45,568 bases of DNA from an uncultured Clostridia bacterium (GTDB lineage Bacteria; Bacillota; Clostridia; Christensenellales; CAG-314). Position numbers and translations under genes: made by a program. Below the pieces are notes generated by a model that was not told the DNA's origin, did not search any database, and was given only the letters and a program-made list of their open reading frames with translations. Within the stretch, counting starts at the first letter, position 1. Each line of letters opens with the position of its first letter. Positions 1,959 through 5,609 of the stretch are shown piece by piece. The stretch spans positions 1 to 45,568 of the forward strand of contig CANQPI010000014.1 in assembly GCA_947625725.1 (NCBI GenBank), in the 5' to 3' direction.

Positions 1959-2708
1959 ATGAAGTATAATGATTGGTTAGAAGAATGGTTGGCATCGTGT
2001 GTTAAACCATTAATGAAAGACAGAACGTTTATTAAGTATTCGTGGATAGCGAGGGAGAAGATAATCCCGCTATTAGGCGACTATGAAATGAAAGATTTGG
2101 AAGCATCTGTCTTACAGCGGTTCGTATCCGGTCTAATTGAACAACATGCGGCTGGAACTGTTAGAGGTATTATGACCGTATTAAAGGCTTCATTAAAAGC
2201 CGCAGTTAGGATGAACTTGATCGAACATCAATATACCGACTGCATTGATGGCCCGAAAGTGGAGGAGAAAGCAGTTGAATGCTTTTCAAAAGAAGAACAG
2301 AAAAAGATAGAAGAATACGTTATTCAGCGGACACGGAAAAGTAAGCTGATAGGAATTCTTATTTGCTTATATACGGGAATAAGGATAGGAGAACTTTTTG
2401 CTCTTGAGTGGAAAGATGTTGACCTAAAAGTTGGAACGTTGTCCATTAGTAAGTCTTGCCACGACGGATGGGGAGAGGGTGGTTATCATAAAATCATAGA
2501 GCCGCCTAAAACAAAGACTTCCAAAAGATTGATACCAATACTGAAGCAGTTATTACCATATATGAATAGGTTGAGAAAGGATTCGACAGGGAGCTATGTG
2601 ATCTATGGGCAGGAAAAGCCAATATCGGTCAGATCGTATACTCAAACAGTTATTTCGCAACTAAAAATTTCAATAGAGGAAGCGGAAAAAAATTCTTGCG
2701 ATTGGTAG
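1959..2708 (+). pseudogene. Tyrosine recombinase (integrase), C-terminally truncated
   Basis: The 249-residue product has a SAM-like core-binding domain (about 1-100) and the start of the phage-integrase catalytic domain. The first catalytic Arg is visible in TGIRIGEL (about 139-146) and the catalytic Lys region in PPKTKTSKRLIPI (about 182-194). The frame ends soon after ISVRSYTQTV, so the HxxR box, the second His and the nucleophilic Tyr are all missing; functional relatives run a further 80-120 residues. It starts with a strong AAAGGAG site. It is almost certainly catalytically dead. Integrases of this type typically target tRNA 3' ends, which fits the tRNA-Glu array about 400 bp downstream, but a different, lost enzyme could have built that array. 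Confidence 0.8.
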
Positions 2709-3013: not shown

Positions 3014-3095
3014 ATTTTAACCTCCTTTTTTATCTGAAGTATACGATAAAAGCGAAACCGTATCCTAATGGAAACGGGTTCGCCTTTACTTTGCT

Positions 3096-3429
3096 TGGTG
3101 ACTCCAATGGGACTCGAACGGAAAATGTTAATGCGTTCTCGTCCCTCGTCACCAAACTCAAAAAGGAACTTGCTTTCGCAAATTCCAAATGATTGCCCAA
3201 AATGATAGGATAAACATGCGCGCAAACGGAAAATAACATTGAGGAACACACGGAGCGCTACGTTCTTAGCCAAGCACGAAGTGCGACCGCCACGGAGTAC
3301 GGAACGTACGGAGTATTTCGACATCACATTGGAAGGAAAGAAGAGCGCGGCAAGCAAACAAAAGCAATGGAAAAAGACGTGCGACTTGCACGTCTTTTCC
3401 GTTGCGTAACCAAGCGCCGCCGCGCGTAG
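3096..3429 (-). repeat. Long cassette copy 1 of the tRNA-Glu array
   Basis: This 334-bp unit begins with 24 bases of tRNA-Glu 3' end and the terminator hairpin, then adds about 235 bp absent from the 97-bp units. The extra part holds three perfect hairpins: GCAC-GAA-GTGC near 3274, GTACG-GAA-CGTAC near 3297, and an 11-bp stem AAAAGACGTGC/GCACGTCTTTT at 3372-3398 that would terminate transcription in both directions. No open frame with a ribosome site is present. Confidence 0.75.
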
Positions 3430-3526
3430 TGGTGACTCCAATGGGACTCGATTTGAAAAGTTAATGGGTTCTCGTCGTCACCAAACTCAAAAAGGAACTT
3501 GCTTCCGCAAATTCCTTTTCTCGTAA

Positions 3527-3706
3527 TGGTGACTCCAATGGGACTCGTCCCCAAGAAGTGGGGTAAGCGAAGTGCAACGGAGCGCTACATCATTTCGACA
3601 TCACATTGGAAAGAAAGAAAAGCGCGGCAAGCAAACAAAAGCAATGGAAAAAGACGTGCGAGTTGCACGTCTTTCCCGTTGCGTAACCAAGCGCCGCCGC
3701 GCGTAA
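3527..3706 (-). repeat. Deleted long-cassette variant of the tRNA-Glu array
   Basis: This 180-bp unit has the tRNA 3' end, then a short unique stretch, then rejoins the long-cassette sequence at the TTTCGACATCACATTGG segment and keeps a slightly shortened terminator hairpin (3650-3674). It lacks the tRNA-type terminator and the first half of the long insert. It looks like an internal deletion of a long cassette. Confidence 0.65.
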
Positions 3707-4038
3707 TGGTGACTCCAATGGGACTCGAACGGAAGATGTTAATGGGTTCTCGTCGTCACCAAACTCAAAAAGGAACTTGCTCCCGCAAATTCCAAATGAT
3801 TGCCCCCAAATGATAGGGTAAACGTGCGCGCAAACGGAAAATAACATTGAGGAACAGACGGAGCGCTACGTTCTTAGCCAAGCACGAAGTGCGCCCGCCA
3901 CGGAGTACGGAACGTACGGAGTATTTCGACATCACATTGGAAAGAAAGAAAAGCGCGGCAAGCAAACAAAAGCAATGGAAAAAAGACGTGCGACTTGCAC
4001 GTCTTTTCCGTTGCGTAACCAAGCGCCGCCGCGCGTAG
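3707..4038 (-). repeat. Long cassette copy 2 of the tRNA-Glu array
   Basis: This 332-bp unit is nearly identical to 3096-3429, with the same order of tRNA 3' end, tRNA-type hairpin, two small GAA-loop hairpins and bidirectional terminator stem (3981-4007). The few differences are scattered substitutions and small indels, which implies a recent duplication. Confidence 0.75.
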
Positions 4039-4194
4039 TGGTGACTCCAATGGGACTCGATTTGAAAAGTTAATGGGTTCTCGTCGTCCCCAAACTCAAA
4101 AAGGAACTTGCTTTCGCAAATTCCTTTTCTCGTAATGGTGACTCCAATGGGACTCGATTTGAAATGTTAATGGGTTCTCGTCGTCACCAAACTC

Positions 4195-4221
4195 AAAAAG
4201 GAACTTGCTCCCGCAAATTCC
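4195..4221 (-). terminator. Terminator of tRNA-Glu
   Basis: Read on the minus strand, GGAATTTGC, a four-base loop and GCAAGTTCC (one G-U pair) are followed by TTTTT. It begins 12 bases past the CCA end and is the template of the hairpins repeated through the array. Confidence 0.8.
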
Positions 4222-4232
4222 TTTTCTCGTAA

Positions 4233-4308
4233 TGGTGACTCCAATGGGACTCGAACCCATGTTATCGGCGTGAGAGGCCAACGTCCTAGGCCGCTAGACT
4301 ATGGAGCC
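4233..4308 (-). tRNA. tRNA-Glu (anticodon CUC), CCA encoded
   Basis: On the minus strand the 76-nt sequence folds as a canonical tRNA. The acceptor arm GGCTCCA pairs with TGGAGTC (one G-T pair), followed by a D-arm, the anticodon stem GTTGGC with loop CTCTCAC (anticodon CTC), a GGGTTCGAGTCCC T-arm, and a genomically encoded CCA. The discriminator and loop bases match bacterial tRNA-Glu. It reads codon GAG. It lies immediately beside the array of its own 3'-end copies, so it is the bacterial side of the attachment locus, and the gene has been kept intact by the duplication. Confidence 0.93.
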
Positions 4309-5396: not shown

Positions 5397-5402
5397 GAAA
5401 TT

Positions 5403-5609
5403 GACCCTGCCTTGTCCGACAGTTTTACATTTTGCGTCAACTACAGTTCGTAAAAGGGAATTGCGTCCGAGCGCCGATGTCAGGTTACTACGGCTTCCGT
5501 GTGGAGTCAAAGAGTTCGCTCCGGTAAAAGACTGATAGCCCTTGGCAGATTACCCACCCTATTTTGATAGGTTGAACGTCAGTAAAACACGGCTATGGCG
5601 GGGCTTTTT
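5403..5609 (+). ncRNA. ssrS: Probable 6S RNA
   Basis: A transcript of about 205 nt would fold into a long rod. CCCTGCC (5405-5411) pairs with GGCGGGG (5597-5603), CCG (5416-5418) with CGG (5590-5592), and GTTTTAC (5422-5428) with GTAAAAC (5582-5588). GCCG-TGT and ACA-CGGC arms can also form near 5473 and 5587. The middle has small hairpins and an unpaired central region, and the closing helix is followed by CTTTTT. Length, rod shape, internal bubble and terminator-like closing stem are those of 6S RNA, which binds sigma-70 RNA polymerase by mimicking an open promoter. The call rests on shape plus resemblance to remembered Clostridia 6S sequences; a covariance-model search would settle it. Confidence 0.6.

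Follow-up and report, generated by a model that had tools for sequence, protein, structure and literature searches.

Why does the 3' end of a tRNA gene recur several times in a row beside the intact gene? The question arises from the window, a stretch of 45,568 nt from an uncultured Clostridia bacterium, in which a tRNA-Glu(CTC) gene is followed by a series of short units, each terminated by a copy of the tRNA 3' end. The array is read here as a local stack of non-autonomous tRNA-end DNA cassettes that were inserted by a trans-acting site-specific recombinase and then amplified by recombination, a reading that we favor with slightly less than even confidence. The preliminary description had reported six same-orientation tRNA-Glu(CUC) 3'-end copies of 21 to 24 nt with spacings of 97, 180, or 332 to 334 bp, and a sequence search confirmed all of them (Table 1).

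Table 1. Features of the tRNA-Glu array and the adjoining recombinase gene; positions are those of the window.
Feature	Position	Strand	Basis
Tyrosine recombinase, 249 aa, C-terminal part missing	1959..2708	+	Phage_int_SAM_3 42.4 bits; Phage_integrase 33.7 bits
Native flank and terminator of tRNA-Glu, displaced by the array	3036..3095	-	Alignment to G018 flank
334-bp unit, 95% identity to the 332-bp unit; tRNA 3'-end copy 3096-3119 (24 nt)	3096..3429	-	
97-bp unit c; terminal tRNA 3'-end copy 3430-3451 (22 nt)	3430..3526	-	
Canonical 180-bp unit; tRNA 3'-end copy 3527-3547 (21 nt)	3527..3706	-	
Core motif CGAAATGATGTAGCGCTCC of the canonical unit	3579..3597	-	
5' arm CCAATGTGA of the canonical unit, near-complement to tRNA 3' end TCCCATTGG	3601..3609	-	Sequence and family test
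Terminator-like hairpin in the canonical 180-bp unit	3649..3674	-	Inverted repeats
332-bp unit, 180-type head with extra hairpin insert and 97-type tail; end copy 3707-3730 (24 nt)	3707..4038	-	
97-bp unit b; terminal tRNA 3'-end copy 4039-4060 (22 nt)	4039..4135	-	
97-bp unit a; terminal tRNA 3'-end copy 4136-4157 (22 nt)	4136..4232	-	
Intact tRNA-Glu(CTC), array anchor	4233..4308	-	ARAGORN; Rfam RF00005 61.1 bits

Part of the array is a recent tandem duplication. All six copies are exact over the lengths given in Table 1 and have the orientation of the gene, and from 3096 up to the gene the successive ends are 334, 97, 180, 332, 97, and 97 bp apart. In the reading direction of the tRNA, a unit begins immediately behind CCA and extends through the next copy of the tRNA end, which gives units of 97, 97, 332, 180, 97, and 334 bp. 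A genome-wide search with the 21-mer, allowing up to three mismatches, found only the gene and the six copies, all seven exact, and the reversed control found 0. The 97-bp units are 96-98% identical to each other, and the 332- and 334-bp units are fusions of a 180-type unit, carrying an extra hairpin inside its core, with a 97-type unit. A block of about 608 bp, composed of 97-, 332-, and 180-bp units, is present in tandem (99% identity over 177 nt and 96% over 180 nt, with unit pairs at 95-98%), and this period indicates the duplication. Recombination-driven amplification, one of the origins considered in the preliminary description, is supported for this block. An assembly artefact is an unlikely source of the array in this contig, because arrays of the same type are present in separately deposited genomes. 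Besides the tRNA, no family was found in an Rfam search of the array. Elsewhere in the same genome, near a contig end (C6:80014-80300, L064), there is a sequence 98% identical to part of the array (query 57-344) that has no exact tRNA-end copies. The window also has a weak 6S RNA match at 5401-5608 (+), with 34.3 bits against a gathering score of 46.4, between an SRAP gene and a competence gene.

The array belongs to a repeat family found behind many tRNAs; a search for such a family had been proposed in the preliminary description. In the window's genome (G000), copies of the tRNA's own end with up to four mismatches in 23 nt follow the Leu-CAG, Val-CAC, Gly-CCC, Trp, Gln-CTG, Met, and Leu-CAA tRNAs, and a degenerate copy follows Val-TAC. 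Across three genomes of the genus, end copies (up to three mismatches in 21 nt, within 2.6 kb) were found behind 33 of 68 single or cluster-final tRNAs, five of which have less than 300 bp of downstream sequence. They were found behind none of 19 tRNAs inside clusters, defined by a next tRNA less than 120 bp downstream; one match in this set was omitted, being the adjacent tRNA-Gly gene itself. The core CGAAATNAYGTAGCGCTCC, with one mismatch allowed, has 87 matches in 20 of the 25 genus genomes, and the reversed pattern has 0. A core scan of the window's family was positive for 21 of the 25 genus genomes versus 0 of 16 others, and in a sample of the order the exact core occurred in 17 of 396 genomes, which belong to one genus of 142.

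In gut genomes the core is tied to tRNAs. The 18-base core was compared with 84,980 species genomes and matched 74 stretches. Among 67 matches in gut metagenome-assembled genomes (MAGs), a tRNA lies on the same strand no more than 450 nt upstream in 55, a tRNA-end copy is present in 51, and at least one of the two in 65, versus 0 of 11 matches in unrelated taxa; this grouping was made post hoc by record title. The 67 comprise records titled Clostridia, Clostridiales, and Candidatus Fimimonas, and four titled Corallococcus sp. NALB. The NALB loci (L205, L223, L252, and L253) are mostly the same sequence as genus members G001 and G003, and the MAGs with the title Corallococcus sp. are these two genomes. 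Candidatus Fimimonas stands under Myxococcaceae at NCBI while its relatives are titled Clostridia; one of the genus genomes, G006, is Fimimonas merdipullorum, and the label (taxid 2840648) looks doubtful. A second group of five genomes, outside the 41 family genomes, has one to three cores each. Behind Val and Arg tRNAs these cores lie at a distance of 55-58 nt, and behind Cys tRNAs at 109-111 nt. Chance origin of the array and family was rejected on the reversed controls of 0 and the tRNA association of 65 of 67 against 0 of 11. Viral carriage of the core was also rejected: two patterns gave 0 matches in viral contigs, and among the matches listed for plasmids (best 10 of 20) and phages (9 of 9) the tRNA part alone was covered. 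No description of these units was recognized in the open-access PMC literature that was searched. Contigs C4, C8, C25, and C32 of the window's genome terminate near tRNAs or units, so draft assemblies probably under-count units. A THF riboswitch (46.5 bits) lies near the tRNA-Leu(CAG) array (L065, 4070-4164, -).

The units share a layout in which an inverted copy of the tRNA 3' end precedes the direct one. A typical unit of about 180 bp consists of a terminator, the inverted copy (the arm), a core with two hairpins, and the tRNA 3' end from C56. Anatomy was studied in 73 elements with a tRNA within 420 nt upstream, from loci picked for the core or for tRNA-Glu; one is from outside the genus. 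In 55 of the 73 the distance from CCA to the start of the core is 105-114 nt, and in 53 the best-matching tRNA-end copy differs at no more than two positions (one was not measurable). Compared with tRNA positions 61-72, the arm is better matched by the inverse complement than by the direct tRNA sequence in 66 of 73 elements. Tandem tRNA pseudogenes were rejected as an account of the main type on this result. The arm also fits its own tRNA better than others, with a mean score of 6.5 versus 4.1 and a permutation maximum of 4.8, and the own tRNA ranks in the top 5% for 34 of the 73. Ahead of the arm, a terminator-like hairpin is present in 52 of 56 units versus 2 of 56 after mononucleotide shuffling, which argues for a role at the DNA level; we consider action of the units as DNA likely.

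After the core comes a hairpin of the form GTAGCG...CGCTTAC with one bulged base. The stem of the second hairpin covaries, with 147 of 184 cells paired versus a shuffle mean of 125 and maximum of 134 (46 of 48 sequences used). In the main type the unit terminates with GA and then the 21-nt tRNA end from C56 to CCA, and the junction is GA-C-R-A. There are also a 97-bp type, a Trp type, and a Gly-CCC/Arg-CCT type with a 19-nt copy. The folding energy of the palindrome is lower on the non-tRNA strand in 41 of 48 cases, and this strand preference is gone after dinucleotide shuffling (22 of 48). Arm mismatches on the tRNA strand are A.C in 33 cases versus G.T in 12, which is suggestive of the other strand and is not independent evidence. 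Near-full tRNA copies with hairpin inserts in their loops were observed downstream of Gly-CCC, Thr-CGT, and Leu-CAA (L071, L072, and L081), and a similar insert is present in the core of the window's 332- and 334-bp units.

Comparison among relatives shows that the units occupy a defined insertion point behind tRNA-Glu. In the related genome G018 the terminator directly follows tRNA-Glu and there is no array, while in the window the native terminator is 1,137 bp from the gene. In G000 the G018 flank recurs behind the last end copy, with identity at 43 of 57 aligned bases, and a third genome, G008, shows the same arrangement (43 of 55); in each case 0 of 500 shuffles was as good. The flanks immediately behind tRNA-Glu in G000 and G008 aligned to the G018 flank no better than shuffles. 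Two different arrays therefore occupy one point between tRNA-Glu and its native flank, and the precise insertion is accompanied by duplication of the tRNA 3' end. Among the other tRNA types compared, the search for an empty site gave no clean case, and the flanks of most types fail to align between species. On our reading, the distal flank of tRNA-Gln looks common to G000 and G005, so some occupied sites are probably old. For tRNA-Glu there is good support for the units being insertions with tRNA-matched ends, and at other tRNAs this is likely. The earlier suggestion of tiny non-autonomous elements integrating at one tRNA stands as far as precise insertion at tRNA-Glu is concerned, but it had to be extended beyond a single tRNA, since members of the family follow many different tRNAs.

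Array length is not identical among relatives, a comparison the preliminary description had called for; both copy number and unit type vary between species. End copies of tRNA-Glu are found at +98, 196, 299, and 480 in G019, at +96, 192, and 547 in G005, and at +96 and 279 in G023. G008 has two units of about 163 bp, and G014, G002, G022, and G017 have one copy each. No copies within three mismatches were found in, for example, G012, G018, G020, and G004. Some of the contigs compared are short at this locus. For tRNA types whose 3' end is not the same in all genomes, the copy tracks its own genome in 32 of 35 elements and another genome in one, with two ties; elements with copies of more than six mismatches were left out. 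Unit bodies, in contrast, are shared: 102 pairs reach at least 78% identity over 65 nt or more, and of these 62 connect different tRNAs and 24 the same tRNA, with 16 unlabelled. Clustering of bodies by tRNA or by genome is nearly flat. The unit behind tRNA-Pro(CGG) in G000 (L073), also present in G004, has a Pro-like 5' arm and an end that is two and three mismatches from tRNA-Val(TAC).

Some intervals between tRNA ends contain restriction-modification genes, while most units contain no gene; at about 100-190 bp a unit is too short to fit one. Gene content was inspected in about 20 loci. In G023, about 4 kb between two tRNA-Ser(CGA) ends encodes an HNH protein and two D12 methyltransferases. 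G017 has a type IIG restriction-methylation protein, an IrrE-like peptidase, and a DUF4411/PIN protein, followed by a unit with a Val(GAC) end. In the window's genome, a zinc-ribbon protein is encoded inside the second Leu-CAG unit.

A tyrosine recombinase is the best guess for the enzyme that would move the units, because the duplicated end begins in the T-loop, a usual crossover region. Both this recombinase and the movement of the units itself are inferred from sequence comparison. The truncated recombinase gene in the window may be related to the array. Its Phage_integrase match spans positions 23-113 of the 172-position profile, and the protein has 45% identity to residues 1-239 of a 302-aa family in the genus. 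That family (E <= 1e-45, about 302 aa) is present in 16 of the 25 genus genomes, all 16 of which are core-positive with one mismatch allowed. Of the nine that lack it, four are core-free (G009, G015, G016, and G020) and five have cores, one of these with a gene fragment. With kinship ignored, four core-free genomes would by chance all be among nine of 25 with a probability of 126/12650, about 0.01, and the presence of the 302-aa family and that of the cores share ancestry. G015 has a more diverged core behind tRNA-Glu and is thus not truly core-free. The second group of five genomes yielded no more than a 95-residue fragment of the family. The 302-aa recombinase does not track the units strictly, being missing from the five core-bearing genus genomes, and was not accepted as the mover on this ground. 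Y1 transposases, which also do not track the units strictly, were not accepted either: PF01797 matches occur in 12 of the 25 genus genomes, and none was found in the draft genomes G023, G008, G014, and G006, which have 7, 7, 4, and 5 cores.

In the proposed mechanism, units would enter exactly between tRNA-Glu and its own terminator, and since each unit carries a copy of its tRNA's 3' end, the tRNA would stay whole. The palindrome formed by the inverted arm, the two hairpins, and the tRNA end would be a recombination site at the DNA level. A site-specific recombinase, most likely a tyrosine recombinase, would act on it in trans, exchanging strands within the T-loop/T-stem portion of the tRNA end. 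Units may then multiply and fuse by homologous recombination between identical tRNA ends. Exchange at a T-loop core would yield hybrid tRNAs whenever a unit passed from one tRNA to another, so the sharing of bodies between tRNAs needs an additional step such as gene conversion. Neither excision nor circular forms nor variation within one species were observed, which counts against the mechanism. A broader version, which we regard as unlikely, makes tRNA genes the platforms of a cassette-capture system. One trans-acting recombinase would read hairpin shape and not sequence and so serve nearly any tRNA, units including restriction-modification and toxin-antitoxin-like genes would be collected and exchanged, and E. 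coli rtT would be a relic of such a system.

The array could alternatively consist of passive repeats, old tRNA 3'-end duplications with a hairpin, kept by descent, made uniform with the tRNA by gene conversion, and expanded by unequal crossing over with no recombinase as mover. The 608-bp tandem duplication, three ends at exact 180-bp spacing at the tRNA-Arg of G013, the bodies common to different loci, and their weak grouping all fit such repeats, and conversion would make copies track their own tRNA as observed. However, a core that is found behind many tRNAs, both in the genus and in another group of genomes, must have spread, the tRNA-Glu site is occupied by unrelated unit types in G000 and G008, and tandem duplication does not make inverted arms fitted to each tRNA. 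We therefore consider purely passive repeats rather unlikely.

Two further readings assign the hairpins another role. The units may act in the tRNA transcript as a trailer, processing signal, or small RNA, as has been proposed for E. coli rtT RNA; the layout is that of rtT repeats, and PMC4986893 describes an RNA product freed from tRNA transcripts in connection with the stringent response. The compensated variation of the hairpins and the position of units behind the last tRNA of a cluster agree with this, but most units have a terminator-like hairpin ahead of the palindrome, bodies are strongly divergent among relatives, and no strand preference of the palindrome survives the control for composition. 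An RNA-level element thus seems improbable. Finally, the units may be hairpins of the REP/BIME kind that a Y1 transposase moves and that land preferentially at tRNA ends. They are palindromic with GTAG within the core, more hairpin inserts occur in loops of tRNA copies, PF01797 is present in the genus, and rtT-like elements are placed among the BIMEs in PMC2965389. Against this stand the four core-bearing drafts in which PF01797 was not matched and the location of nearly all core matches at tRNAs, which leave Y1-driven movement very improbable. Insertion of DNA cassettes by a recombinase acting in trans remains the reading that we prefer. The family suggests that not only large islands but also small exchangeable DNA units can use tRNA genes as platforms.

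The units resemble several known systems in part. Like integron attC arrays, they are tandem units bounded by palindromic sites with arms that are variable yet complementary, with a bulged base in one hairpin and some gene cargo. They differ in that the anchor is a tRNA gene and most units are gene-free. A GTT R box defines the attC crossover, and no such R box is found at the junction. Two recombinases of the window's genome score 39 and 52.8 bits with the IntI model (TIGR02249), against a cut-off of 265. The integron-like cassette system with a tyrosine recombinase put forward in the preliminary description is thus matched in palindromic sites, arrays, and some cargo, but neither the integrase nor the junction core qualifies the units as integron cassettes. 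The units possibly work like integron cassettes; attC sites recombine through the bottom strand according to PMC2727003.

Elements and islands that target tRNA genes offer a second comparison. Duplication of the tRNA 3' end with an intact tRNA is the usual outcome of tyrosine integrases and is seen here as well, and a truncated integrase adjoins the window's array. In contrast to such islands, the units are about 100-190 bp long, have no integrase of their own, are stacked, and contain an inverted copy of the end. They are short extragenic palindromes in many copies as are REP/BIME elements, but they are tied to tRNA 3' ends, and Y1 genes do not track them.

The closest likeness is to the rtT repeats of E. 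coli tyrT/tyrV (RF00391). To our knowledge the tyrT repeats have long been an unexplained oddity at one locus; a 1991 paper by Bosl and Kersten reportedly deals with them. They are 178-bp units directly behind the tRNA gene, each ending in the tRNA-Tyr 3' end, with a 10-base perfect inverted complement of the tRNA end about 59 nt behind CCA followed by hairpin-rich sequence. The 19-nt copies of the Gly-CCC and Arg-CCT types described above are a further likeness. Every rtT unit of E. coli K-12 (L339) also has AAGGTTCGA, a direct piece of the tRNA-Tyr T-arm, before the hairpins, positioned as it would be after insertion of a hairpin into the T-loop of a copied tRNA. The Rfam RtT model matches the K-12 locus and found nothing in element loci L034, L065, L258, and L227. 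The units described here differ in their core, sit behind many tRNAs, and have a terminator-like hairpin inside and occasional gene cargo. They nevertheless share the rtT-type features of a tRNA 3'-end copy with at most two mismatches (53 of 73) and an inverted complement (66 of 73), the latter taken as defining on our own reading of the E. coli units. The rtT layout thus occurs here as a genome-wide, quickly varying family with tRNA-matched ends, a readable insertion site, and occasional defence genes, which makes the nature of rtT repeats a testable question. We file the units under the rtT kind of repeat, as a new form.
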